A stretch of 38,501 bases of DNA from an uncultured Chitinophagaceae bacterium (GTDB taxonomy: Bacteria > Bacteroidota > Bacteroidia > Chitinophagales > Chitinophagaceae): contig CALLZY010000009.1 of the NCBI GenBank assembly GCA_937858715.1, positions 1-38,501 of the forward strand. Reading direction: 5' to 3'. The number at the start of each line of letters is the position of its first letter. Position 1 is the first letter of the stretch. The notes under the pieces were generated by a model that was not told where the DNA came from, searched no databases, and saw nothing but the letters and a program-made list of their open reading frames with translations. The position numbers were made by a program, and so were the translations under genes. Shown in pieces: positions 5,553-38,371 of the stretch.

Positions 5553-6596
5553 ATGCAAACTATCTTTGTTATTGCCATCCTTGTGCTTGGGTTTATTGTA
5601 ACCTTTCAGATAGCCAAGGCCAGCGAATACGTAGCTGTTCTCCGCGGATTAGAAACTTCCAGAAAACAAAGCAACCGGATTAATGCGGCATTATTGCTGG
5701 TGTTCCTTATTGTGGGACTGATTGGTGTGTTTTATGCCAACGCCAAACTGAAAGGGAAAATACTGGGAGCACCTGCCTCAGACCATGGTGTACTGGTTGA
5801 CAGGATGCTGTATGTGACCCTGGCCATTACAATTATCGTATTCTTTGTTACACAAATTCTTTTGTTCTGGTTTTCTTTCAAATACCAGGAATCTGATAAA
5901 AGAAAGGCTTTTTATTTCCCGCATAATAATAAACTGGAGGTAATCTGGACTGCCATACCAGCTATTACGCTGACCATTCTCGTGGGCTTTGGTATTTTCT
6001 ACTGGTACAAAATCACTGGTAAAGCACCAAAAGAGGCGATGGTGGTAGAAGTTGTAGGTAAGCAGTTTGGCTGGATGTACCGTTACCCCGGAGCAGACAA
6101 AGAGTTAGGCAGAAAGTATTTCAAAAACATCAATGCAGAAAACAACAACCCGCTGGGCCAGATATGGGAAGACGGTAATAACCATGATGATGTGTTTGTA
6201 GAGCAGGAAATGCATTTAGTGGTGAACAAACCCGTTAAATTAGTTATCGGCGCACAGGATGTCATTCACAGTGTGGGGCTTCCTCATTTCAGGTTAAAGA
6301 CAGATGCGGTACCCGGCACACCTACCACTATGTGGTTTACGCCGACCAAGACAACAAAGCAGATGAAAGAAGAAACAGGCAATCCTGATTTTACTTTTGA
6401 GCTTGCCTGCGACCAGATGTGCGGCCGTGGTCACTGGAGTATGAGAGGAACAATTATAGTGGAAACACAGGAAGAGTTTGATATGTGGCTGGCTAGTAAA
6501 AAACCACAATACCTGGTTGCGAATCCCGACAAAGATCCCAGTATTAAGAAAGACACCGTTGCAACACCAGCTCCAATAGCTGCTGTTATCAAATAA
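5553..6596 (+). CDS. coxB: Cytochrome c oxidase subunit II
   Basis: A 347-residue subunit II of an aa3-type oxidase. Two clear N-terminal-half membrane segments (about residues 45-65 and 90-115) follow a hydrophobic start, then WTAIPAITLTILV, a subunit II hallmark. The C-terminal cupredoxin domain has the CuA site: HSVGLPHFR provides the first His, and CDQMCGRGHWSM provides Cys, Cys, His and Met. A Pro/Ala-rich tail follows. CuA accepts electrons from ActE or another cytochrome c. It opens the cox part of the cluster 231 bases after actF, so it may also have its own promoter. I could not pick one with confidence. Confidence 0.96.
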   Translation: MQTIFVIAILVLGFIVTFQIAKASEYVAVLRGLETSRKQSNRINAALLLVFLIVGLIGVFYANAKLKGKILGAPASDHGVLVDRMLYVTLAITIIVFFVTQILLFWFSFKYQESDKRKAFYFPHNNKLEVIWTAIPAITLTILVGFGIFYWYKITGKAPKEAMVVEVVGKQFGWMYRYPGADKELGRKYFKNINAENNNPLGQIWEDGNNHDDVFVEQEMHLVVNKPVKLVIGAQDVIHSVGLPHFRLKTDAVPGTPTTMWFTPTKTTKQMKEETGNPDFTFELACDQMCGRGHWSMRGTIIVETQEEFDMWLASKKPQYLVANPDKDPSIKKDTVATPAPIAAVIK

Positions 6597-6618
6597 GAAA
6601 CGAAACAAAAACCTGCAG

Positions 6619-6632
6619 CAACCGAAAGGTTG
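6619..6632. promoter_or_regulatory. Small GAAA-tetraloop hairpin between coxB and coxA
   Basis: CAACC (6619-6623), loop GAAA, GGTTG (6628-6632), followed by TTTAAAAAC. It lies in the 58-base gap between coxB and coxA. The stem is short (5 bp), but the GNRA-type loop is stable. It could be a weak attenuator or processing site. Chance occurrence is possible. Confidence 0.3.
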
Positions 6633-6654
6633 TTTAAAAACATAATCACATAGT

Positions 6655-8448
6655 ATGAGCGCAGCATTGCACCTACATTCTGAAGCAGCCGGTTCCCACG
6701 AACATCACGGGCACCATAAGCAAAGCTTTATTTCGAAGTACATCTTCAGCATGGACCACAAAACAATTGGTAAGCAGTTCCTGATTACCGGTATTGTTTG
6801 GGCCATCATCGGAGGATTGTTTTCTGTACTCTTCCGTTTGCAGTTGGGTTATCCCGATCAATCGTTTCCTATACTGGAAACCATTTTTGGTAAATGGGCT
6901 AAAGGCGGACAAATTCAGCCGGAGTTTTATTATGGTCTTGTTACCATTCACGGAACGGTGCTGGTGTTTTTCGTACTTACGGCAGGCTTAAGCGGAACCT
7001 TTGCCAACCTGCTTATTCCGTTGCAGGTGGGTGCAAGGGATATGGCTTCACCGTTTATGAATATGCTTTCATATTGGTTTTTCTTCCTGGCAGGTGTGGT
7101 TATGCTGGCATCCATTTTTGTTCATACAGGCCCCGCTTCTGGTGGCTGGACAACTTACCCGCCGCTAAGTGCACTAAGACAGGCTGGCGACGGACAAAAA
7201 ATCGGAACCGACTTATGGCTAATCAGCATGGCGTTGTTTATTGTGTCATCTCTGTTAGGCGGTCTTAATTATATATCCACCATTCTGAACATGCGTACCA
7301 AGGGTATGAGCATGACCAAAATGCCGCTTACCATGTGGGCAATGTTCTTTACGGCTGTGTTGGGTGTTCTTTCGTTCCCTGTGTTATTGTCTGGTGCAAT
7401 ACTTTTGCTCTTTGACCGTAACCTCGGTACCAGTTTTTACCTGAGTGATATTGTTATCAATGGTGAGATATTGCCAAATGAAGGAGGCAGTGCAATTCTG
7501 TATCAGCACCTTTTCTGGTTCTTGGGTCACCCAGAAGTATATATCATCTTGTTACCGGCGATGGGTATGGTGTCAGAAATACTCTCTGTCAATTCCAGAA
7601 AACCAATCTTTGGTTATATGGCAATGCTGGGGTCGATGTTTGCAATTGCAATCCTTGCCTTCCTGGTGTGGGCACACCACATGTTCGTAACAGGATTAAA
7701 TCCATTCCTTGGTTCAGTATTCGTATTATTAACGCTGCTAATTGCGGTGCCTTCTGCCATTAAGGTATTTAACTGGCTTACTACTTTGTGGAAGGGAAAT
7801 ATCAGGTTTACACCAGCAACGTTATTTGCAATCGGGTTTGTGAGTTTGTTTATTTCCGGAGGCTTAACAGGTATCTTCCTGGGTAACTCAACAATTGATA
7901 TTCACCTGCACGACACCATGTTTGTGGTGGCACACTTCCATATTGTAATGGGCGTTGCTTCATTCTTCGGAATGTTTGCGGGAGTGTATCATTGGTTCCC
8001 CAAAATGTTTGGCCGCTACATGAACAATACAATTGCTTACATCCACTTCTGGGTAACAATGGTAGGTGCGTATCTTATTTTCTGGCCGATGCACTACCAG
8101 GGACTGGCCGGTATGCCCCGCCGCTATCTTGATAAAAGAGGATGGGCATCGTTCAACCAGTTTGGAGATGTTGACAAGATGATTACTGTTGTTTCTATTA
8201 TCGTATTTGCCGTACAACTGATGTTTGTCTTCAACTTTTTCTATTCCATTTTTAAAGGAAGAAAGGTTACTACAAAGAATCCGTGGGGTGCGAATACCCT
8301 TGAATGGACAACTGAAATTAACCCGGGCCATGGTAACTGGGAGGGTGAAATACCTGAAGTACACAGGTGGCCATACGACTACAGTAAGGATGGAAGAGAT
8401 TTCATTCCGCAGACAGAGCCAGTAGGCGCAGATGAGAGTAAACATTAA
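6655..8448 (+). CDS. coxA: Cytochrome c oxidase subunit I (A1-type heme-copper oxidase)
   Basis: A 597-residue catalytic subunit that reduces O2 to water and pumps protons. All expected ligands are visible: TIHGTVLVFF (heme a His), GHPEVY (CuB His with the crosslinked Tyr and the A1-type proton-channel Glu), WAHHMF (two CuB His), and HDTMFVVAHFHIVMG (heme a3 and heme a His). PLQVGARDMA supplies the D-channel Asp and AIKVFNW the K-channel Lys, so this is an A1-type pump. The N-terminus is His-rich (HEHHGHHK) before the conserved KYIFSMDHKTIG start. It sits 58 bases after coxB. Confidence 0.98.
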   Translation: MSAALHLHSEAAGSHEHHGHHKQSFISKYIFSMDHKTIGKQFLITGIVWAIIGGLFSVLFRLQLGYPDQSFPILETIFGKWAKGGQIQPEFYYGLVTIHGTVLVFFVLTAGLSGTFANLLIPLQVGARDMASPFMNMLSYWFFFLAGVVMLASIFVHTGPASGGWTTYPPLSALRQAGDGQKIGTDLWLISMALFIVSSLLGGLNYISTILNMRTKGMSMTKMPLTMWAMFFTAVLGVLSFPVLLSGAILLLFDRNLGTSFYLSDIVINGEILPNEGGSAILYQHLFWFLGHPEVYIILLPAMGMVSEILSVNSRKPIFGYMAMLGSMFAIAILAFLVWAHHMFVTGLNPFLGSVFVLLTLLIAVPSAIKVFNWLTTLWKGNIRFTPATLFAIGFVSLFISGGLTGIFLGNSTIDIHLHDTMFVVAHFHIVMGVASFFGMFAGVYHWFPKMFGRYMNNTIAYIHFWVTMVGAYLIFWPMHYQGLAGMPRRYLDKRGWASFNQFGDVDKMITVVSIIVFAVQLMFVFNFFYSIFKGRKVTTKNPWGANTLEWTTEINPGHGNWEGEIPEVHRWPYDYSKDGRDFIPQTEPVGADESKH

Positions 8449-26121: not shown

Positions 26122-27552
26122 CTAATTTCTTTCCACTCTTTTTACCAGGTTTCCCTTTTTATCTTTTACTTCAATTACCATTGGCATTTGTCCCAAGGCA
26201 TGTGTAGAGCAGGATAGACAGGGGTCATAACAGCGAATGGTAGATTCTACCCTGTTCAGCATACCTTCTTTGATGTCGTCACCTTTCACATATTGCCTGG
26301 CTACTTCAAGTACGGAACGGTTCATAGAGGGATTGTTCTGACCGGTGGCAATAAGCAGGTTTACTTTCAGCAGCTTTCCTGTTTCATCTGTTTTGTAATG
26401 ATGGAACAAAGTACCTCTTGGTGCCTCAGAACTGCCAATGCCTTCTGTATAATTCCAGCGGCCATGGTGCTGAATGTTTAATGAAGTCACTTCCGGATCT
26501 TTCAGTATGCGTTCTGCATCTTCCACGTCGCTCAGGGCTTCAATTAACCTTGTGTAGTGGTAATAGAAAGTGCCATGTACCGGTTTGCCACCACTCATGT
26601 GCTTGAATTTTTCAAACTCTTCCTGTGCCTGTGGTGTTTTCATACGGCTGCAAACGTTGAGGCGTGCCAGTGGCCCCACCCTGTAAAAACCTCTGTCGAA
26701 ACCATAAGGCTTGAAGTAAGGATATTTCAGGTATGACCAGTTAACAGAACGTTCGGCTATAAATTCAAGATATCTTGTGGGATCAAGCTGATCCTGCAAA
26801 ATAATGCCATCACCATCCATGAAGCGGAGCTTGCCATCATACAGTTCATGTTCGCCGCCGGGCCCTACAGTTCCCAGGTATAATGTGGGAGATGTGGCGA
26901 AGGTGTTTACCATCTCAGCATTTTCTTCATGAAACTTCTTGATGATATTGATTCCAAGATGAACAGTTTCCAATGCTTCAGGAATCCATTTGAGCAAAGC
27001 CTTCCTGTTTTCTTCTGTAAGCGGATAGGCCATACCTCCGGGTACGATACCCATAATGTGTATTTTCTTACCGGTGATGCGTTCACTAAGCTCCTGTCCG
27101 AATTTCCTTAACCTGATACCACGAACAGCTATGTCAGGAAATTTTTCTGCCATACCGAGAATATTTCTTTTTGCCGGATCGCTGTCATATCCCATCAAAA
27201 AGTCTGGTGAAGACAGGTGGAAAAAAGAAAGGGCATGTGATGAAAGATTCTGTCCAATGTGCATAAGCCTGCGCAGCAGGTTGGCTGTGTAAGTTGGCCT
27301 GAGGCCTTGTATCATTTCACAGGCTTTTACGCTGGCCAGAGTATGGCTGGTTGGACAAATGCCACAGATACGTGGAGTGATGGTGGGCATCTCGGTGTAC
27401 ATACGGCCTTCACAGAATTTTTCAAAACCCCTGAACTCATTTACATGAAACAATGCATCACTTACATTGCCGTTATCATCGAGTTCGATTGTTATATTGG
27501 CATGTCCTTCTATCCTGGTTACAGGAGAGATAAATATTTTACGCTTATCCAT
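26122..27552 (-). CDS. hoxH: [NiFe]-hydrogenase large subunit, first cluster (HoxH-type, group 3)
   Basis: A 476-residue catalytic subunit carrying the Ni-Fe(CN)2CO site for H2 oxidation or evolution. The L1 motif is [10 protein letters not shown] (Cys63 and Cys66). The L2 motif is DPCLSCSTH (Cys445, Cys448, His451), followed by a 25-residue tail removed during maturation. L1 continues TLASVKACE, unlike the VSHHLAAAKA of the second cluster, so the two large subunits are well diverged. It overlaps hoxY by 8 bases. The operon order hoxE-F-U-Y-H points to a group 3d-like, NAD(P)-linked cytoplasmic enzyme. The group assignment is inference without a tree. Confidence 0.95.
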
Positions 27553-28087
27553 ATTTCAATTTTTTAGCCTCACTTAAATTAGGTATTCTGTCGTTCAAAA
27601 ATTCAAACAATACATAGAAGATAGTGTCTGCATCGGGCGGGCAACCGGGAATTACAAAATCCACTTTCACCACCTCCTGAAGAGGAACTACTTTGTCGTT
27701 CAGTTTTAACAGTGACGGATGGTCGGGCACCAGGCCAATGTGATCGTTGCTGATGGCATGTACATAGGATGTTTCAAACACATCTTTCAGATCGAAGTAG
27801 TTGCGCATGCCGGTTACATTGGTCATCACAGCACAATCGCCAAAGGCGATGAGTGTTTTGCAATGCTTGCGGATGTGCAATATTTCCCGGTGATGTTCAT
27901 CGCTGGTAACAGAACCTTCCACCAGTGCAATGTCCACTTCGGGAAATTCCTTACCGTCTACCACCGGACTTTTAACGATGTCGGCCAGCTTGGCAACATC
28001 CAGTATTCTTTCGTCAATATCCAGCAAAGACATATGGCAGCCGGAACATCCGCCGAGCCACACCGTTGCTAATTTTTTCTTACTCAT
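27545..28087 (-). CDS. hoxY: [NiFe]-hydrogenase small subunit, first cluster (HoxY-type)
   Basis: A 180-residue short small subunit. It binds the single proximal [4Fe-4S] cluster with Cys14 and Cys17 (WLGGCSGCHMSLLDID), Cys85 (AFGDCAV) and Cys149 (IPGCPPD). There is no Tat signal and there are no medial or distal cluster cysteines, as expected of cytoplasmic group 3 enzymes. It passes electrons from HoxH to HoxU. It overlaps hoxH by 8 bases, and the gap to hoxU upstream is 88 bases with a strong hairpin, which may reduce or time its translation. Confidence 0.95.
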   Translation of the reverse strand: MSKKKLATVWLGGCSGCHMSLLDIDERILDVAKLADIVKSPVVDGKEFPEVDIALVEGSVTSDEHHREILHIRKHCKTLIAFGDCAVMTNVTGMRNYFDLKDVFETSYVHAISNDHIGLVPDHPSLLKLNDKVVPLQEVVKVDFVIPGCPPDADTIFYVLFEFLNDRIPNLSEAKKLKYG

Positions 28088-28109
28088 TTTGATATTATTA
28101 ATTCAGTTG

Positions 28110-28170
28110 AACCATTAAGAAATTAAGGTTCATTAAGAATTTGTTTAATTGTCTTAATGCCTTAATGGTT
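28110..28170. repeat. Nested hairpin in the hoxU-hoxY gap
   Basis: AACCATTAAG at 28110-28119 pairs with CTTAATGGTT at 28161-28170. Inside it, CATTAAGA at 28131-28138 pairs with TCTTAATG at 28152-28159. The double stem fills the 88-base gap between hoxU and hoxY. The AACCATTA / TAATGGTT outer arms are the same as in the hairpin at 11356-11400. It may be an mRNA processing or stability element, or a copy of a dispersed palindromic repeat. Confidence 0.65.
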
Positions 28171-28175
28171 AAAGT

Positions 28176-28883
28176 TTACAATTTCATTTTCCTTCTTTCC
28201 ACCAGTTCTGTAACCATTACGGGGTTCTTTTCTAACTGTCCCTGTACAATGGCTTTTGGCCAGATGGCGCCTGTAGGACAAGCATGCAGGCATTTGCCAC
28301 ATGATGTACAAGTGGTGGATTGTCCCCAGGGTGTGTTGAAGTCGGAAATAATGCGTACCTGGTGGCCACGGTTCATCACATCCCAGTTGTGGGCGCCTTC
28401 CACTTCATTACATACTCTTACACAACGGGTACACATAATGCAGCGGTTGTGATCCATAACATACCATGGGTGTGATGTGTCCACTTCGCATTGCGGGAAC
28501 AGGTGCGGATAGCGGATATGATCAAGTTCAACTTTGTAACCCAGGTTTTGCAATTCGCATTTTCCATTTGATACACAAACGGCACATACGTGGTTGCGTT
28601 CGGCAAAGAATAATTCGGTAGTAATGCGCTGGTACCTTTTAATCCTGTCGGTTGTAGTCTTAATGGACATATTCGGTGCCACTTTGGTGGTACAGGCAGA
28701 AAGCAATTTGTTGATGCCTTCCACTTCAACAAGGCAGAGACGGCAGGCACCAATATCAATGATACCTTTCAGGTGGCACATGGTTAGTATTTCGATTCCG
28801 TTTTCCCTGCATACTTCCAGAATGGTCTTTTGCGGTTCAACGTCAAACTTTTTTTCATCTATTGTAACAGATATCTTGTTCAT
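28176..28883 (-). CDS. hoxU: Hydrogenase iron-sulfur subunit HoxU, first cluster
   Basis: A 235-residue NuoG-N-like electron-transfer subunit linking HoxF and HoxY. All cluster ligands are present: [2Fe-2S] Cys36, Cys47, Cys50, Cys64; the His-ligated cluster His98, Cys100, Cys103, Cys109; and two [4Fe-4S] clusters from C148IMCTRCVRVC158 and C192TSCGKCLHAC202. It sits 20 bases after hoxF and 88 before hoxY. This complete set is the reference for judging the shortened HoxU part of the second cluster, which aligns residue for residue up to position 158. Confidence 0.95.
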   Translation of the reverse strand: MNKISVTIDEKKFDVEPQKTILEVCRENGIEILTMCHLKGIIDIGACRLCLVEVEGINKLLSACTTKVAPNMSIKTTTDRIKRYQRITTELFFAERNHVCAVCVSNGKCELQNLGYKVELDHIRYPHLFPQCEVDTSHPWYVMDHNRCIMCTRCVRVCNEVEGAHNWDVMNRGHQVRIISDFNTPWGQSTTCTSCGKCLHACPTGAIWPKAIVQGQLEKNPVMVTELVERRKMKL

Positions 28884-28903
28884 ACAACTTTCTTTGAAAT
28901 GGT

Positions 28904-30544
28904 TTACGCTTCTTTCAAAATTTTACTTTCATATTCCTGCCTGAAGTGGCGGAGTGTACTGAGCAAAGGATTGGGTGCAGAACCACCCAGGCCGCACAGG
29001 CTGGTTTCTTTTACATACACAGCCAGTTCTTCAAGCCGGTCAAGGTCAATTTGTGAGGCTTTGCCATCATATATTTTCTGAAGCAGATCATGCATCATTT
29101 TTGTTCCCACACGGCAGGGTACGCATTTACCACAACTTTCATCCATGCAGAACTCCATGAAGAAACGGGCCACATCCACCATGTCTGAACTTTGATCCAT
29201 CACAATCAAACCGCCAGAACCCATAATGGAGCCAAGGCTGGTGAGTGATTCGTAATCCATTTTTACATCAAGATGTTCCGCAGGAATACAACCTCCGGAA
29301 GGACCACCTGTTTGCGCTGCTTTAAATTCGCCACCACCCTGTATGCCACCACCAATTTCAAACACCACTTCACGCAATGTTGTGCCCATTGGTACTTCTA
29401 TCAATCCTGAGTAGTTAATTTTTCCTGCGAGGGCAAATACTTTTGTACCGGCACTTTTAGCAGTACCTGTTTCACTATACCATTCACCATCGTTTTGAAT
29501 AATCGGTGCTATCGCCGCAAAGCTCTCAACATTATTAATCAGCGTTGGCTTTCCCCACAGGCCGGATTCGGCCGGGAATGGAGGTCTTGGTTTTGGTGTT
29601 CCCCGTTTTCCTTCAATGGAAGCGATAAGGGCAGTCTCTTCACCACAAACGAATGCTCCGGCACCAATCCTTACTTCCATTTCGAAAGAAAATTCGCTGC
29701 CAAGGATATTCTTGCCAAGCAGCCCATGCTTTGTAGCTTGCTTGATGGCCTGCTCGAAACGTTTAATTGCCAGAGGGTATTCGCCACGGATGTAAGCAAA
29801 ACCTTTACTTGCACCAATTGCATAACCGGCAATGGTCATGCCTTCTATAATGCGATGTGGGTTGCCTTCCAGCACACTGCGGTCCATAAAAGCTCCGGGG
29901 TCACCCTCATCTCCATTGCAGATAACATATTTCTGAGGGCTTACGTATTTATAAACGGTTTCCCATTTCAAACCTGTTGGATAACCGGCACCGCCACGGC
30001 CACGGATGCGGCTTTGCTTTACTTCAGAAATCACTTCTTCAGGGCTCATCCTGAACAGTGCTTTATCTAATGCCTGGTATCCGCCAACAGCGAAATAGTC
30101 TTCTATTTCTTCGGGGTTAATGTCGCCGCAATCTTTCAAAGCAATCTTCAGCTGCTTTTTAAAGAAAGGATCTTCGCTGGCATTAACGAAAGGCTTTTCT
30201 CTTGAGTCGGCAAACAGCAGCATGTCTTCTATTGGTTTGCCTTCCACAATCTGGCTTTGTATAATCCTGTCGAGATTTTCGCAGTTCACATGCTGATAGA
30301 TAGTATTCTCAGGCAGGTGTTTTACCAATGGTCCCTGGTTACAAGGGCCCATACAGCCTGAAGGAACGACTTCTATTTCTTTATCCAGTCCTCTTGTCTT
30401 TATTTCATCCTGAAGCTTTTTAAGCACTTCTTCCGAGCCGGATGATATACAGCCGGCCCCGCAACATACACATATCTTGTGCTTCATTTGCTTGTGCTTG
30501 TCCTTAGCCTTTTCTACGATGGCCTGTAATTCATGTCGGTTCAT
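28904..30544 (-). CDS. hoxF: Hydrogenase diaphorase subunit HoxF (NuoF-like), first cluster
   Basis: A 546-residue FMN/NAD(H)-binding subunit. An N-terminal thioredoxin-like [2Fe-2S] domain (residues about 20-105, CVCCGAGC and SGCMGPCN) precedes the NuoF core. That core has the glycine-rich loop [49 protein letters not shown] and the [4Fe-4S] ligands [10 protein letters not shown] plus SLCGLGG. It oxidises or reduces NAD(P)H coupled to H2. It overlaps hoxE by 4 bases (ATGA type) and is followed by hoxU after 20 bases. All motifs look intact, so NAD(P) activity is expected. Confidence 0.95.
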
Positions 30545-31065
30545 ATATTTCCAATTTTCTCGTTAATTGAATTGATGACGGCTTCTTCGGTTACTTTACC
30601 ATGCACATCATTATCTATTACAACGGCAGGGGCAAGTCCGCAAGCGCCAATGCAACGGGCTACCTGCACACCCAGTTTGTTGTCGGCTGTAACCTGTCCG
30701 GGTTTTAAAGCAAACTGGCTTTCAATCTTATTGAGTAAAGCCTGTGCTCCTTTAACATAACAGGCAGTGCCTGTGCAAACAAGACAGGTGTGCTCGCCTT
30801 TTGATTTAAGGGAGAAGAAATGATAGAATGTAACAGTTGAGTACACTCTGGAAGGCGGCAGGCGAAGCTCTTTTGCAATGAAATCCAGCACTTCTTTTGG
30901 CAGAAAGCCAAATGCATTTTGCGCAGTGTGCAAAATCTCAATCAGTGCATCGGGCTTGTAGCCTTCTTTTTTCATTTTGGCAGCAATGAGCTTTACCCGT
31001 GGATCAGTCTTAGACAGCTCATGTGCATGAGCAGGATGATGATGGGTATGATGTGTTGCAGTCAT
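30541..31065 (-). CDS. hoxE: Hydrogenase subunit HoxE (NuoE-like), first cluster
   Basis: A 174-residue NuoE-type thioredoxin-fold [2Fe-2S] protein. The four ligands are Cys97 and Cys102 ([12 protein letters not shown]) and Cys138 and Cys142 ([11 protein letters not shown]). An N-terminal His-rich stretch ([11 protein letters not shown], residues 5-15) precedes the domain and might bind Ni or other metals (inference). It is the first gene of the minus-strand operon hoxEFUYH. It overlaps hoxF by 4 bases and begins at the 326-base control region shared with the divergent second hydrogenase operon. Confidence 0.94.
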
Positions 31066-31391: not shown

Positions 31392-33131
31392 ATGAAAGAA
31401 CCTCTTCAAACCCGGATGATGGATCAGTTGTGGGATTTACAATTAAGTAATGGTTATATTACCGATGAGGATGTAATAAGATTGTCACACCAGTTCAACC
31501 TTTCTGAAATAGAAGTGGAAGGTGTGGTTTCTTTTTATCATTTTTTTCACCGTAAGCCCACAGGCAAATACACTATTTATCTTAACAACAGTATTGTGGC
31601 TGATATAAAAGGGTTCAGCCGCATCAAGGAAACGCTGGAACGTGAAACCGGAGCCACCTTTGGCTCTGTTGACCGGACCGGGACTTTTGGTTTGTTTCTT
31701 ACGCCGTGTATTGGCCTGAGCGACCAGGAACCATCGGCGCTGATTAACTTCTATCCGTTTACCAATCTTAATGCGATTAAGATTAAAGACATCGTTTCTT
31801 CTCTTAAACGTGGTGTTGATCCGGAAACTATCTGCGATTTGCCTGCAGATAATATCCGCTATACACCTCCGGGAAACAAAACTGTTTTTTTTAAGGAATT
31901 TGTTAATGGTTCTGCATTAGCAAGAGCTGCCACACTTGGGCCTGATGGTGTGCTGGAAGATTTGAAGAAAGCAGAACTGGCCGGCCGGGGTGGTGCCTAT
32001 TATCCTACCTGGAAAAAATGGAATGCAGCCCAATTGCAGTCATCAGCAACAAAGTATGTTATCTGCAACGCCGATGAAGGAGAGCCAGGTACATTTAAAG
32101 ACAGGGTGCTGATTAATACACAAGCCAGCACACTGATTGAAGGAATGATTATTTGCGGATATACTATCGGCGCCGAAAATGGAATTATTTATCTGCGTGG
32201 AGAATACCGCTGGCTAAGGAATAAACTTGAAACAGCCATTGAAGAATACCGGAAAGCAGGGCTGTTGGGAACTGATTGCGGAAATATAAAAGGATTCAAT
32301 TTTGATATCCGGGTGCAGATGGGTGCCGGCTCTTATGTTTGTGGTGAAGAAACAGCACTGCTTGAATCACTGGAAGGAAAAAGAGGCGAGCCAAGAACCA
32401 AGTGGTATTTCCCGGTTGAGAAAGGATACCTGCAGCAACCCACTGTAATTAATAATGTGGAGACCTTTTGTGCCGCAACAAGAATTATTGAGATAGGTGC
32501 AGATACGTACATGAGCCAGGGCATTCCGGGTTCACCCGGGGTAAAACTGCTGAGCGTATCAGGTGATTGTAAGCTGCCGGGCCTGTATGAAATTGAATGG
32601 GGTATGACGGTGGCTGAACTGCTGGAACTGTGTGAAGCAGAAGACCCGTATTACATACAAGTGAGCGGCCCTTCAGGTGAGTGTATCTCCATCAAAGAAA
32701 AATACCGGCGCATTTCCATGCTCGACCTGCTGGCCCGAAAAGACATACGTTGCGGTGGTTCGTTTATGATATTCAGTAAACAAAGAGACTTGGTAAAAGT
32801 GCTGCTGAACTTTTCAGAATTCTTCATGTCAGAATCATGCGGCATTTGCACACCTTGCCGTGCAGGCAATTTTATTATTCAGCGCAAACTGGAAAGATTG
32901 CAGAACGGCCTGGCCAACGAAGCCGATTTAAAGGAACTGAAAAGCTGGGGCACCATTATGAAAAATACCAGCCGGTGTGGCTTAGGCAAAACCGCTACCA
33001 ACAGCCTTATATATGCAATGGATAAGTTTCACGACTATTTTATGCTGCGGCTGGATAAAGAATACAACGGCCTGAACCTGAAGTTTGATATTGAGGCAGC
33101 AACAGAAGAATATGAGAAATACAAAATCTGA
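31392..33131 (+). CDS. hoxF: Fused HoxE-HoxF-like diaphorase subunit, second hydrogenase (degenerate NuoE part)
   Basis: A 579-residue protein with a NuoE-like domain (about 1-140) fused to a NuoF-like core (about 165-560). The NuoE part keeps the fold signature (VEGVVSFYHFFHRKPTGKY), but only Cys106 of its four [2Fe-2S] ligands. The other three positions are Asn65, Ala70 and Ser110, so the cluster is probably absent. The core keeps [36 protein letters not shown] and the [4Fe-4S] ligands Cys483, Cys486, Cys489 and Cys529. The flavin/NAD loop reads GRGGAYYPTWKKW, with Tyr203 and Trp207 where Gly is normal, so NAD binding may be altered. It leads the plus-strand operon, 5 bases ahead of the next gene. 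Confidence 0.92.
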   Translation: MKEPLQTRMMDQLWDLQLSNGYITDEDVIRLSHQFNLSEIEVEGVVSFYHFFHRKPTGKYTIYLNNSIVADIKGFSRIKETLERETGATFGSVDRTGTFGLFLTPCIGLSDQEPSALINFYPFTNLNAIKIKDIVSSLKRGVDPETICDLPADNIRYTPPGNKTVFFKEFVNGSALARAATLGPDGVLEDLKKAELAGRGGAYYPTWKKWNAAQLQSSATKYVICNADEGEPGTFKDRVLINTQASTLIEGMIICGYTIGAENGIIYLRGEYRWLRNKLETAIEEYRKAGLLGTDCGNIKGFNFDIRVQMGAGSYVCGEETALLESLEGKRGEPRTKWYFPVEKGYLQQPTVINNVETFCAATRIIEIGADTYMSQGIPGSPGVKLLSVSGDCKLPGLYEIEWGMTVAELLELCEAEDPYYIQVSGPSGECISIKEKYRRISMLDLLARKDIRCGGSFMIFSKQRDLVKVLLNFSEFFMSESCGICTPCRAGNFIIQRKLERLQNGLANEADLKELKSWGTIMKNTSRCGLGKTATNSLIYAMDKFHDYFMLRLDKEYNGLNLKFDIEAATEEYEKYKI

Positions 33132-33136
33132 ATGTT

Positions 33137-34411
33137 ATGTCAAATCTGGTAAATATTACAATTGACGGGAAAGCCATTCAGGCCGAAGAAGGAAAGAACC
33201 TGATGCTGGTGGCAAGGGAGAATGGCATTTTTATTCCCTCGCTTTGTTTTTATGAACATATTGAACCGCCATTAGGCACCTGCCGTGTCTGTACTTGTAA
33301 AATAAATGGTAAATACAGCCCTGCCTGCACAGAGAAAATAACTGAAGGGCTGACAGTGGAAGTAAACACTGAAGAACTGGTTGACAGCCGGAAAGCTTTA
33401 GTGGAAATGATGTTTGCCGAAGGCAATCATATTTGTCCTGCCTGTGAAAAAAGCGGACACTGCGATTTGCAGCACATGGGTTATGAACTCGGAATTTCTT
33501 CAACAAGATTTCAGCACTTGTTTAAGGACAGGGCAATTGATTATAAACCCAGCCGGATGGTAATGGAGCACAACCGTTGCATTAAATGCCTGCGTTGTGT
33601 GGTGGATGTAAAAACGGAAGACGGGAAAAAAGTTTTCAACTATCAGGACAGGGGCAATGAAACTTATGTGGGAATTGATTATGAGCAGGAAGAAAAACTT
33701 TCGGAAGAGCAGGTGATGAATGCCATGAGAATTTGTCCTACCGGTGCCATTATTGTACGGGGTGTAAGCCTCGCTAAACCATTTGGCGACCGTAAGTATG
33801 ACATGGATTCAGTGCAGAAAGACTATTCAAAAAGAAAACAGGGGCACCGGTCAAGGCCAACCATGATGGAGAAAAAAATTGTGGCTACCGTATCACTGGC
33901 GGGATGTTTCGGTTGCCACATGTCGCTGCTTGATATTGATACGGACCTGCTGGATGTGGTGGAGCTGATTTCGTTTGACAAATCGCCGCTCACCGATTTT
34001 AAAAACTTTACATCCCGTTGTCACATAGGCATTATAGAAGGTGGTGTTTGCAACTCAGAGAATATTGAAACGTTGCGCAAGTTCAGGGAGCATTGTGATA
34101 TTCTTGTTTCGCTGGGCGAATGTTCTATCTGGGGCGGATTGCCAACTATGCGAAATTCCATTCCGCTGAGTGAATGCCTGGAAGAGGCTTACCTCAACTC
34201 ACCAACCAGCGAACCCGGGGCCAATATTGTTCCTTATCACGAAGACCTCCCGAAAATATTGGACAGGGTGTATGCCTGTAGCGAGATAGTGAGAATTGAT
34301 TATTTCATTCCGGGTTGCCCGCCTGATGCGAATCATATATGGAAAGCGGTTAAAAATATTTTGTGGGGAGAAGAATACTCCATTCTGTACTCCGAGTTTA
34401 AGTATGACTAA
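33137..34411 (+). CDS. Fused HoxU-HoxY: iron-sulfur subunit joined to hydrogenase small subunit, second hydrogenase
   Basis: A 424-residue fusion. Residues 1-205 match HoxU: [2Fe-2S] Cys37, Cys49, Cys52, Cys64; His98, Cys100, Cys103, Cys109; and one [4Fe-4S] from Cys148, Cys151, Cys154 plus Cys200. The second [4Fe-4S] is completely gone: its CxxCxxC is deleted and its fourth ligand is Val158. A basic linker (residues about 210-245, KDYSKRKQGHRSR) leads to a HoxY domain with Cys257, Cys260, Cys329 and Cys394 for the proximal cluster. There is no stop or frameshift at the junction, so the fusion is genuine in this sequence. It starts 5 bases after the HoxEF gene. Confidence 0.93.
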   Translation: MSNLVNITIDGKAIQAEEGKNLMLVARENGIFIPSLCFYEHIEPPLGTCRVCTCKINGKYSPACTEKITEGLTVEVNTEELVDSRKALVEMMFAEGNHICPACEKSGHCDLQHMGYELGISSTRFQHLFKDRAIDYKPSRMVMEHNRCIKCLRCVVDVKTEDGKKVFNYQDRGNETYVGIDYEQEEKLSEEQVMNAMRICPTGAIIVRGVSLAKPFGDRKYDMDSVQKDYSKRKQGHRSRPTMMEKKIVATVSLAGCFGCHMSLLDIDTDLLDVVELISFDKSPLTDFKNFTSRCHIGIIEGGVCNSENIETLRKFREHCDILVSLGECSIWGGLPTMRNSIPLSECLEEAYLNSPTSEPGANIVPYHEDLPKILDRVYACSEIVRIDYFIPGCPPDANHIWKAVKNILWGEEYSILYSEFKYD

Positions 34412-34426
34412 TAAACTGTTTGTTCT

Positions 34427-35878
34427 ATGACCAGGAAAATAACCATAGACCCTGTAACAAGAGTGGAGGGCCACGGCAGGGTAACCATACATCTTGATGA
34501 GTACGGCCAGGTAAAAGACTCTTTCTTTCATATAGTGGAGTTCCGGGGCTTCGAAAGGTTTATACAAGGACATCCATATTGGGAAGCGCCGGTGCTGGTA
34601 CAAAGGCTTTGTGGTATATGTCCGGTAAGTCACCATCTTGCTGCAGCAAAGGCTATTGATCAGTTGGTGGGCATTGACCCAAAAGATTTGTCTCCTGCTG
34701 CAACCAAGTTGCGCCGGCTGATGCACTTTGGCCAGATTTTTCAGTCACATGCCCTGCATTTTTTTTATCTCGCTTCACCAGATTTGCTGTTTGGAGTTGA
34801 TGCTCCCGCAGAAAAAAGAAATGTGGTGGCAGTAGCTGTCGAAAACAGGGAACTGGCAGTAAAAGGAATAACCATGCGGCGTTTTGGTCAGGAAATCATC
34901 AAAGCAGTGGCTGGCAAAAAAATCCACGGCATACTGGCAGTGCCCGGAGGTGTGCATAAAACCTTCACACAACGGGAACGGGATTTCTTCATGGATGGAA
35001 AGGAGATTGAGAATATAGATACTATGATTGAATGGTCTTTAGGGGTGATTGATTTTATGAAGGGGTATCATGAAAAAAACAGGAAACTGCTGGATGAATT
35101 TGCAGAGTTTCCATCTGGCCACCTCGGCATGGTAAATGAACTGGGGGCAATGGATTTGTATGATGGCAAACTAAGGGCAATTGACCACGAGGGAAACAGG
35201 ACGCTGAATGATATTTCCACTGATTTGTATGAGCAATATTTCAGCGAAGCGGTAGCACAATGGTCGTACATGAAGTTTCCATACCTGAAAGGGGTGGGAA
35301 GGGAAAAAGGCTGGAACAGGGTTGGTCCGCTGGCAAGAATAAACCTGTGCGATTTTATTCCCACGCCGCTGGCTGAAAAGGAAAGGCAGGCTTTCATCGC
35401 ATTTACAGGCAAGAAGATAAATAACAGCACCATGTACTCACACTGGGCAAGATTGATAGAAGTGCTGCATGCTGCCGAAGTAATGAAAGAGCTGCTGAAT
35501 GATCCTGAACTTTTGGGAGAAGACCTGGTAAGAAAAGGAACACCCCGTTCAAAAGGTATTGGTATTATTGAAGCACCGAGGGGCACACTAACGCATCACT
35601 ACGAAGTAGATGAAAAAGGGATGATTACCCGTTGTAACCTCATTGTATCCACTACGCATAATAATGATGCAATGAACACTGCGGTGAAATGGGTGGCCAA
35701 TAATGTTATCAGCCGAAAAGGCGCTATCACTGATGGTATGCTCAACCAGGTGGAAGTAGCCATCAGGGCATATGACCCTTGTCTTAGCTGTGCCACCCAG
35801 GCAATGGGTAAGATGCCACTGAAAGCAGAACTGTACAATTATAAAGGAGAGATGATAGATGAGCGATTTAAATACTGA
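34427..35878 (+). CDS. hoxH: [NiFe]-hydrogenase large subunit, second cluster (HoxH-type)
   Basis: A 483-residue catalytic subunit. L1 is RLCGICPVSHHLAAAKA (Cys62 and Cys65), close to classic group 3d HoxH. L2 is DPCLSCATQ (Cys452, Cys455), followed by a 25-residue tail as in the first cluster. The usual His (or Arg) that ends L2 and precedes the maturation cut is Gln458 (codon CAG at 35798). All four metal-binding cysteines remain, so an active site can form. The last 20 bases overlap the dedicated protease gene, coupling synthesis of substrate and protease. It is one of two well-diverged large subunits in this window. Confidence 0.95.
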   Translation: MTRKITIDPVTRVEGHGRVTIHLDEYGQVKDSFFHIVEFRGFERFIQGHPYWEAPVLVQRLCGICPVSHHLAAAKAIDQLVGIDPKDLSPAATKLRRLMHFGQIFQSHALHFFYLASPDLLFGVDAPAEKRNVVAVAVENRELAVKGITMRRFGQEIIKAVAGKKIHGILAVPGGVHKTFTQRERDFFMDGKEIENIDTMIEWSLGVIDFMKGYHEKNRKLLDEFAEFPSGHLGMVNELGAMDLYDGKLRAIDHEGNRTLNDISTDLYEQYFSEAVAQWSYMKFPYLKGVGREKGWNRVGPLARINLCDFIPTPLAEKERQAFIAFTGKKINNSTMYSHWARLIEVLHAAEVMKELLNDPELLGEDLVRKGTPRSKGIGIIEAPRGTLTHHYEVDEKGMITRCNLIVSTTHNNDAMNTAVKWVANNVISRKGAITDGMLNQVEVAIRAYDPCLSCATQAMGKMPLKAELYNYKGEMIDERFKY

Positions 35879-36326
35879 TATAAAAAAGATTTTGGTTATC
35901 GGCATAGGCAACTGTGGCCGTCATGACGACGGCCTGGGCTGGAAGTTTACCGAGATGATATCAAAACACAGCCAGGGAAAAGTTGATTCTGAATACAGGT
36001 ACCAGTTACAGGTGGAGGACTCAGTGCTGGTGAGTAAGTATGATACGGTAATATTTGCTGATGCTTCTCACTCCAAACTGAAACAGGGATTTGAGATACA
36101 CCGCTGCAGGGCGGCAACACATTATTTCTACTCATCGCATATGCAAACACCTGAAACTATTTTATACCTCGCAAAAGAATTGTACAATAAGATTCCTAAA
36201 TCCTTTATTGTGGCTATTAAAGGCCATATTTGGGGGCTGGGTACCACACTGAGCCGTGTGGCTGAAAAGAATCTTGAAAAAGCTGTTTTGTCTTTTGAAA
36301 AAGAGTTTTTTAAAGTTGCAACATAG
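35859..36326 (+). CDS. hoxW: [NiFe]-hydrogenase maturation protease for the second hydrogenase
   Basis: A 155-residue HybD/HoxW-family endopeptidase. The first motif is GIGNCGRHDDGLG, the second IFADASHSK and the His is in YFYSSHMQTPETIL. These are the expected Ni-sensing positions. It overlaps the end of the second hoxH by 20 bases (ATG at 35859), so it is surely its partner. The sequence differs from the first protease, including Cys-Gly-Arg in place of Pro-Ile-Arg after GIGN. It may be adapted to a large subunit with Gln instead of His before the cleavage point (inference). Confidence 0.92.
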   Translation: MSDLNTDIKKILVIGIGNCGRHDDGLGWKFTEMISKHSQGKVDSEYRYQLQVEDSVLVSKYDTVIFADASHSKLKQGFEIHRCRAATHYFYSSHMQTPETILYLAKELYNKIPKSFIVAIKGHIWGLGTTLSRVAEKNLEKAVLSFEKEFFKVAT

Positions 36327-36380: not shown

Positions 36381-36422
36381 ACAATTGTCACTATGACAGT
36401 TTTACAATTGTCTGACATGTCA
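36381..36422. promoter_or_regulatory. Stacked palindromes upstream of the hyf-like operon
   Basis: ACAATTGTC occurs at 36381-36389 and 36404-36412 (23 bases apart), each containing the palindrome ACAATTGT. Overlapping these are TGTCA-CTA-TGACA (36386-36398) and the perfect palindrome TGACATGTCA (36413-36422). The block sits 84-125 bases before the likely hyfB ATG (36506). It looks like a tandem operator for a dimeric regulator binding ACAATTGT or TGTCA/TGACA half-sites. The regulator is unknown. Confidence 0.6.
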
Positions 36423-36505
36423 TGCCCGGTAATGATGAGCATCATTTCCCGCCCCCTGAATTCTGTCTAATATCGCATTCTCAAATTGACCTAAAATTTT
36501 GGCTC

Positions 36506-38371
36506 ATGTCTTCTTATATCGCCAGTTTATTCATACTGCCGCTTGTAGTAAGCGGCTTGCTACTCCTGCTGCCTAAGCAGCCGGCACGGTTCCTGGTCAT
36601 TGTTTCTGCTGTGGCCTTATCGGCTTTATCGCTCTACCTGTTTATTAATGTGGACGAACCGTATAAATTCGGTGTGCCGCATTATGTAAATGAAATAGTG
36701 GCCGGAGCTGATATTCTGCTGCTGCTTTATTTTGGATGGATTGCCATCCGCAGGAAAAACCTGCTGGTGGGTGTGATGAGTGTGCTGCAGCTCGGAGGGC
36801 TGTTGTATTTACTGAAAACATTACCAGCCGATCATTCAATGCAGTTTATGGTGGACAAGCTGAGTACATTTATGTTTCTGCTTATTAATGTTATCAGTGG
36901 CGTAATTGCCATCTACTCGTTGAAGTATATCGATGAAGAAGACTGCAGCAGTTTCCGTAAAAAATATTTTCTCTCCATCTTGTTCTGGTTTATTGCAGTA
37001 ATGAACCTGATTGTTTCATCAGACAATATGGAATATTTCTTCCTGTTCTTTGAGTTAACTACTCTGGCTTCATTCCTCTTTATCGGGTTCAGAAAGGATA
37101 AAGAATCAGTTAATAATGCACTTACCGCTTTATGGATGAACCAGATTGGCGGGCTGGCCATACTGGCAGCTATTTTCTTTATAGCATATAACGGTTATGG
37201 AGAAGCCACATTTACCAACCTGCTGGAAAATACCGGCGCAACTGGTATTTTATTGCCGCTGGCTTTATTGAGTGTTGCAGCTTTAATCAAAGGAGCCCAG
37301 ATGCCTTTCAGCAAGTGGCTGCTGGGTGCGATGGTGGCTCCCACACCGGTTAGTGCCCTTCTCCATTCATCAACCATGGTGAAGATTGCACCATTTATTA
37401 TTCTTCGCCTGTCTCCGGCACTGAGGGATACACCTGTTGCTACTGTGATTATTGCATTAACAGGTTTTGTGTTTATCGCTGCGGCCATCGGCGCATTATC
37501 TCAGGATAATTTCAAACGCATATTGGCTCATTCTACTATTGCTCTGCTGGCATTAATGATTATGATGGGTGCTGTGGGCACCCCGGTAACTATTGTTGCC
37601 GCACTGGCCCTCATCCTGTTCCATGGTATTTCAAAATGTATGCTGTTCCTTAATGCGGGCATATTAGAAAGGGTCTTCCACCTGAAGCAGTCATCCGATA
37701 TGGATAAACTGGGCGAAAGCGGACCGTTTACTTCGCTTGTCATCACCATTGGATTTATGTCGTTGCTGCTGCCGCCATTCGGCGCCTTTATTGGTAAGTG
37801 GATGAGTATTGAAACCCTTGGAGCTATGACAGCAGATAAGAAAATTTTAGGCGCATTGGTGATGGTGGCTGTTGCCTGTGGTGGTGCTGTGTTGTCCTTA
37901 CTGTATTTTAAAGTAATGGGCCTCATGATTGCCCGAAGCGGGGAAAATGATAAACTTAATTTTGAAAAAACAGGTTCTATTTTTTCAGGAACCATTTATG
38001 TACTCATCGGGTTGATTATTTTGAGTATGCTTGGTTTGCCCTGGCTGGTTACAGAATATTTTGCCCCTGTTGCTGAAGAATCTCTTAAAATGAATGTGCC
38101 TGTGATAACAGAAGGCTGGAATGTATATATCGGCCCGATGAAACTGCCGCTGGTTCCATTGCTGATAGCATTCTTCCTGCTGCCGGTTACTATTATTGCG
38201 GCCATGTTCGTCCGCTTTAAGAATGTGGACAGGGCGAAAGAATATATGTGTGGTGAAAAAGTAAATTATACTTTCTCCTCCTTCTATTTTTCAACAGATA
38301 AGGCTACTCCATATTTCTATGCAACAGGTGTTCTGTTTTTTGTTGCATTAATTATTGTGGCACTGATATAA
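36506..38371 (+). CDS. hyfB: Complex-I-like antiporter subunit, HyfB/NuoL-like, of a membrane-bound hydrogenase-type module
   Basis: A 621-residue polytopic protein of the NuoL/MrpA/HyfB family with about sixteen hydrophobic segments. Key marks are FFELTTLASFLF (conserved Glu of the antiporter fold), WMNQIGGLAIL, and ALIKGAQMPFSKWLLGAMVAPTP with the channel Lys. ALLHSSTMVKIAP, LAHSTIALLALM and the C-terminal EYMCGEKVNY (a YxCGE motif common in group 4 hydrogenase and Hyf subunits) complete the set. I chose the ATG at 36506. An in-frame ATG at 36422 would add 28 hydrophilic residues and overlap the operator. The next gene is NuoH/HyfC-like, so the order matches hyfB-hyfC more than complex I. 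Confidence 0.85.
   Translation: MSSYIASLFILPLVVSGLLLLLPKQPARFLVIVSAVALSALSLYLFINVDEPYKFGVPHYVNEIVAGADILLLLYFGWIAIRRKNLLVGVMSVLQLGGLLYLLKTLPADHSMQFMVDKLSTFMFLLINVISGVIAIYSLKYIDEEDCSSFRKKYFLSILFWFIAVMNLIVSSDNMEYFFLFFELTTLASFLFIGFRKDKESVNNALTALWMNQIGGLAILAAIFFIAYNGYGEATFTNLLENTGATGILLPLALLSVAALIKGAQMPFSKWLLGAMVAPTPVSALLHSSTMVKIAPFIILRLSPALRDTPVATVIIALTGFVFIAAAIGALSQDNFKRILAHSTIALLALMIMMGAVGTPVTIVAALALILFHGISKCMLFLNAGILERVFHLKQSSDMDKLGESGPFTSLVITIGFMSLLLPPFGAFIGKWMSIETLGAMTADKKILGALVMVAVACGGAVLSLLYFKVMGLMIARSGENDKLNFEKTGSIFSGTIYVLIGLIILSMLGLPWLVTEYFAPVAEESLKMNVPVITEGWNVYIGPMKLPLVPLLIAFFLLPVTIIAAMFVRFKNVDRAKEYMCGEKVNYTFSSFYFSTDKATPYFYATGVLFFVALIIVALI

Follow-up and report, generated by a model that had tools for sequence, protein, structure and literature searches.

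The closest described relatives of the enzyme analysed here are soluble hydrogenases of two kinds, distinguished in part by their iron-sulfur clusters. In the available sections of a 2024 paper (PMC11647496), the HoxFUYH enzymes of H. thermoluteolus, R. opacus and R. eutropha are reported to lack HoxE, the [2Fe-2S] cluster of HoxF and one [4Fe-4S] cluster of HoxU, and not to react with ferredoxin, while the Synechocystis enzyme, which is of the HoxEFUYH type, is reported there to react with it. A further source (PMC8880783, again in its available sections) gives the chain of redox centres as FMN-F1-U1-U2-U3-Y1-[NiFe] and describes an A4/A5 branch as missing, and the available part of another (PMC3189943) likens HoxF to a fusion of Nqo1 with Nqo2 (that is, with a HoxE/Nqo2-like part) without the N1a [2Fe-2S] cluster. 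HoxU itself resembles the N-terminal part of NuoG/Nqo3 of complex I, although the complex I chains are much longer. In Cupriavidus necator H16 (plasmid pHG1, locus L078) the genes follow the order F-U-Y-H-protease, with hoxU and hoxY as separate genes that overlap by 4 bp, and in the Hydrogenophilus thermoluteolus structure 5xf9 the two subunits are likewise separate chains (B and C). To our knowledge, the characterised members of group 3d all have HoxU and HoxY as separate chains.

In the window (the whole stretch of 38,501 nucleotides that was analysed), an operon of the order hoxEF-hoxUY-hoxH-protease (31392-36326) was found in which HoxU and HoxY share one frame, next to a hoxEFUYH operon that lies head to head with it. 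The features that bear on the analysis are as follows.

26122..31065, minus strand: the window's other operon, hoxE-F-U-Y-H, with two ferredoxin-type clusters in HoxU
31392..33131, plus strand: hoxF with a fused HoxE-like N-terminal domain, most [2Fe-2S] ligands lost
33137..34411, plus strand: hoxUY fusion gene, a single open frame of 424 amino acids
33245..33328, plus strand: HoxU [2Fe-2S] site, C37, C49, C52, C64 (conserved in 73 of 73 fused proteins; role by homology)
33428..33463, plus strand: HoxU His-ligated [4Fe-4S] site, H98, C100, C103, C109 (73 of 73; role by homology)
33578..33736, plus strand: the remaining ferredoxin-type [4Fe-4S] site of HoxU, C148, C151, C154, C200 (alignment and ligand conservation)
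33812..33868, plus strand: linker between HoxU and HoxY (low conservation, low pLDDT)
33905..34318, plus strand: HoxY [4Fe-4S] site, C257, C260, C329, C394 (73 of 73; role by homology with the small subunit)
34427..35878, plus strand: hoxH, [NiFe] large subunit with CGIC and DPCLSC motifs
35859..36326, plus strand: hydrogenase maturation protease (NCBIfam TIGR00072)

The first-pass annotation had read the gene as a HoxU-HoxY fusion, and both its single open frame and its domain matches bear this out. The HoxU half (approximately residues 1-225) contains the Pfam domains Fer2_4, NADH-G_4Fe-4S_3 and Fer4_Nqo3 within residues 4-205, which are iron-sulfur domains of the NuoG/HoxU kind, and is followed by a variable linker (approximately 226-244) and a HoxY half (approximately 245-424), in which residues 257-406 match Oxidored_q6, the small hydrogenase subunit family. 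The top PDB sequence match of the HoxY half was 5xf9_C (chain C of the Hydrogenophilus NAD-reducing hydrogenase, E 4e-50), and the first two of the HoxU half were 7t2r_A and 5xf9_B, so that this structure was the best or near-best match for both halves. An AlphaFold2 model, built with 45 of the 73 fused proteins aligned, was too weak for cluster-to-cluster distances (mean pLDDT 66.7, pTM 0.43, and pLDDT below 50 over residues 232-240); used as a Foldseek query, it placed both chains of 5xf9 among the top ten, with 5xf9_C ranked first (rmsd 6.7 A) and 5xf9_B tenth (5.8 A).

Alignment of the fused HoxU with that of the neighbouring operon (28176-28883; ligands H98, C100, C103, C109, C148, C151, C154, C158, C192, C195, C198 and C202) agreed with the cysteine and histidine positions first assigned to both proteins, and confirmed that one complete [4Fe-4S] site of the fused HoxU is missing with all four of its ligands, while the remaining sites are intact. 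The absent site is the partner ferredoxin-type one: position 158 is a valine, and the columns of C192, C195 and C198 hold no cysteine (the alignment there reads V158, gap, V, A). The CxxCxxC motif had been described as deleted; its absence stands, but a clean deletion does not, the segment having given way to one that is, on balance, two residues shorter, so that the final cysteine is C200 in the fused HoxU and C202 in its neighbour. None of the 16 ligand positions of the fusion varies among the 73 fused proteins. The linker, by contrast, is their least conserved part (mean conservation 0.42 over residues 221-240) and varies in length; together, invariant ligands and a variable linker fit a plain tether.

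Taken with its operon, hoxUY very probably encodes the HoxU and HoxY parts of a cytoplasmic, group 3d NAD-reducing [NiFe] hydrogenase of the C. necator type, in which a cluster was lost and the two subunits were then fused. The traits of group 3d HoxFUYH enzymes are present: (i) an operon of HoxF, HoxU, HoxY and HoxH with a maturation protease; (ii) a HoxU with a [2Fe-2S], a His-ligated [4Fe-4S] and one ferredoxin-type [4Fe-4S] site, the last as in C. necator HoxU, and a HoxY with a [4Fe-4S] site; and (iii) a HoxH with both CxxC motifs (CGIC and DPCLSC, which we take to be the N- and C-terminal nickel motifs) and a HoxE-like domain without [2Fe-2S] ligands. None of 68 aligned HoxEF rows (67 near-full frames from the loci described below and the window's own) retains more than two of the four columns C97, C102, C138 and C142, numbered on the window's HoxE, where they are presumably the [2Fe-2S] ligands. 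Separate HoxU and HoxY chains are the one trait that the single frame of hoxUY lacks, but this is a matter of gene structure and does not define membership in group 3d. The gene order is otherwise that of C. necator, in which the protease is followed by a gene for a cyclic-nucleotide-binding-domain protein (presumably HoxI); tblastn found no HoxI relatives beyond C. necator in the other loci, the flanks of which are short. HypD, a maturation protein, is encoded in the same genome as hoxUY. The cyanobacterial-type HoxEFUYH enzymes, including that of the window's other operon, have subunits homologous to those of the fused enzyme, but differ in that their HoxE is a separate protein with its cysteines present (rather than a domain within HoxF) and in that their HoxU (as in Acaryochloris, L080, and the neighbouring operon) retains the second ferredoxin-type [4Fe-4S] site that the fused HoxU lacks.

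A scan of genome contigs with peptide patterns of the fused protein, one of them taken from the linker, returned 73 loci, in 70 of which the HoxU and HoxY parts share one open frame. Of the three exceptions, L072 derives from a metagenome-assembled genome that is frameshifted at several points (also in hoxEF), and L073 and L076 run off their contigs. Because the patterns came from the fused protein, this proportion is proof of a real fusion and not a measure of its frequency. By their record titles, the loci belong to Bacteroidota (56), Balneolota (8), Pseudomonadota (6), and Rhodothermota, Myxococcota and Planctomycetota (one each); near copies (more than 98.5% identical) make up two pairs among the fused rows, the row L037 is also fused, and the fused frame is present in the strains Ginsengibacter hankyongi, Robiginitalea marina and Flavivirga rizhaonensis. 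HoxEF is found around 71 of the 73 and HoxH around 70, the gaps lying at or close to contig edges. Samples of whole genomes were searched for a complete fused frame. Of 395 genomes from the window's phylum, 14 had a match at E 1e-40 and 7 of those carried the frame (the window's own counted); it was also found in 2 of 36 with a match at 1e-30 among 369 from the class of the Lysobacterales member (one being that member), and in 1 of 22 with a match (again the member itself) among 235 from the phylum of the Polyangia member; among 246 from the phylum of the Pirellulaceae member there was none in the 24 with a match, that member's own copy being cut by a contig end. The fusion is therefore mainly a trait of the Bacteroidota group and is rare elsewhere in these samples.

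The state of the HoxU clusters was tabulated for 193 rows, reduced to 162 once identical ones were removed. In all 72 rows scored as fused, one ferredoxin-type cluster keeps its four ligands and the other has none left. Unfused HoxU genes adjoining hoxY fell into a single-cluster class of 52 distinct genes, including those of C. necator H16 and Lichenicola (L079), and a two-cluster class of 14, including that of the window's other operon. The first count is 53 rows less L072, which belongs to the fused clade but is frameshifted, and includes L168, which is split over two frames; the second is 15 rows less one, the neighbouring HoxU having been entered twice (as window_U1 and L002). The unfused 5xf9_B, when aligned, has the one-cluster pattern through CILCGLC and ARICPVGAL. 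Separately, the Pirellulaceae copy (L076) has a cysteine at column 158, but its sequence diverges after residue 156 of the match, just before the contig end, and the cysteine could reflect either a frame problem or a different form. Three NuoG-like rows (L004, L150 and L181) also lack the second site, but they lie on a separate branch, which makes theirs a separate change.

Trees were built with the trait columns removed. The larger comprised 127 rows (56 fused), with rows at least 88% identical to a retained one dropped and the two L168 pieces, L065, L072 and L076 left out; the smaller comprised 81 rows, with the fused ones thinned to 21 and the long-branch L129 and rows without HoxY left out. 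In the smaller tree, a single branch parts single-cluster HoxU, fused and unfused alike, from two-cluster HoxU with support of 100/100. In the larger, SH-aLRT support is 97 for the main fused clade and 98 for its grouping with its sister, the C. necator type; the nearest unfused relatives of the clade are L078, L102 and L104. One fused row (L101 of genome G573, from the class of the Lysobacterales member) was placed among unfused HoxU, and its whole operon lies in L190:

L190 (G573) 6336-7598, minus strand: second, independent HoxUY fusion, within a complete hox operon

Forcing all fused rows into one clade was rejected (AU p 0.00056, in the 81-row tree with 21 fused); the fusion therefore arose at least twice. 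The branch of the cluster loss lies deeper than the fusion, and on this ordering the loss came before it. The trees are unrooted, and the reading of the change as a loss (rather than a gain) rests on two-cluster rows lying outside HoxU as well, with the deepest fork weakly supported (66). As judged from these sequences, the cluster was thus lost within the ancestry of the single-cluster HoxFUYH enzymes, and the fusion followed later, at least twice.

Several other readings of the gene were weighed against this one. One, a worry raised by the first-pass annotation, is that the stop codon between the two genes went missing through misassembly or a sequencing error. In its favour, the neighbouring unfused genes mostly overlap, and a single indel error would fuse them: in the unfused single-cluster class, hoxU and hoxY overlap in 37 of 52 pairs (by 4 bp in L102 and L104, as in L078) and lie no more than 15 nt apart in the other 15, these single values being approximate because HoxY was assumed to begin at the start codon closest to the HoxU stop. 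The open fused frame shared by 70 of 73 loci from separate assemblies makes such an error vanishingly improbable; neither chance nor misassembly accounts for that record, and the fusion is real and conserved. Another suggestion, that an internal start in the linker (MMEKK, residues 242-246) additionally yields HoxY as a chain of its own, draws on a methionine that 40 of the 73 fused proteins have in the stretch aligned with residues 222-246 and on the HoxY of unfused relatives, which begins at about the same place; with Met codons alone considered, the other 33 have none there, and this reading is unlikely.

The first-pass annotation had further proposed that the second [4Fe-4S] cluster was lost specifically from the fused protein, as a change coupled to the fusion that shortened its relay, and had named beforehand a general loss among unfused homologues as the observation that would overturn this. 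The uniform lack of the cluster among the 72 fused-scored rows is what would be expected on that proposal, but the same lack in 52 distinct unfused HoxU, in 5xf9_B and, by the available account in PMC11647496, in the HoxFUYH enzymes as described, together with the deeper position of the loss on the trees, leaves it highly improbable. The contrast from which it started was with a different subtype, the HoxEFUYH of the neighbouring operon, the HoxU of which retains the extra cluster; the missing cluster is the normal state of the HoxFUYH type and is already in print. Nor, probably, was the main relay shortened: PMC8880783, in the part available, places the missing A4/A5 as a branch off the chain, and if A4 corresponds to the second ferredoxin-type site, then the loss concerns a side branch and leaves the main relay unbroken.

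On the preferred reading (an early loss followed by fusion), electrons from H2 would pass from HoxH to the HoxY [4Fe-4S] cluster (C257, C260, C329, C394), then through the His-ligated [4Fe-4S] cluster of HoxU and the cluster held by C148, C151, C154 and C200 to the HoxU [2Fe-2S] cluster, and from there by way of the [4Fe-4S] cluster and FMN of HoxF to NAD+. HoxU lost its extra [4Fe-4S] cluster in a common ancestor of the single-cluster enzymes, before the fusion, and the HoxE-like domain of HoxF lost its [2Fe-2S] cluster as well. The enzyme is predicted to be specific for NAD and not to react with ferredoxin. The simplest origin of the fusion itself would be a stop loss or a small indel where hoxU and hoxY overlap, and its effect would be to tie the diaphorase and hydrogenase parts together by a variable linker about 20 residues long.

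The surroundings of the operon offered some further observations. A head-to-head pair of group 3d operons of unlike cluster content occurs in 4 of the 73 loci (L009, L011, L013 and L056), several of the others being too short to judge. A NuoL-like antiporter gene begins 3' of the fused operon (36422-38371, plus strand), as it does in 8 of the 73 loci. The gene stands, in Ginsengibacter hankyongi, at the head of a run of NuoH-, NuoB- and NuoC-like genes (L007 9331-13270, plus strand; L192 800-5986, minus strand) that also encodes a two-cluster ferredoxin and a large subunit in which the motifs RVCGLC and DPCLSC occur; judging by these genes, the run beside the group 3d operon is apparently a membrane [NiFe] hydrogenase, presumably of group 4.

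The cluster loss was thus already known, while neither the HoxU-HoxY fusion nor its second origin was found reported in one open literature library (which most papers of subscription journals lie outside); the available sections of one account of hoxF, hoxU, hoxY and hoxH in a Cyclobacteriaceae metagenome-assembled genome (PMC12942990) do not mention a fusion. The enzyme is an otherwise ordinary NAD-reducing soluble hydrogenase with a real and conserved fusion of hoxU to hoxY. Soluble hydrogenases serve in NADH regeneration and are known to suffer from dissociation into a hydrogenase half and a diaphorase half; a naturally tethered form, in which a linker about 20 residues long is tolerated, available in strains of Ginsengibacter, Robiginitalea and Flavivirga, could have practical use. 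For the biology of these bacteria, a tentative and so far rather doubtful suggestion is that a widespread clade covalently locked the hydrogenase to the diaphorase module by way of HoxUY, on at least two occasions, and that in some Chitinophagaceae, where this enzyme lies head to head with a HoxEFUYH that retains the clusters associated with ferredoxin use, H2 metabolism may be split between an NAD-dedicated enzyme that does not dissociate and a ferredoxin-linked one.
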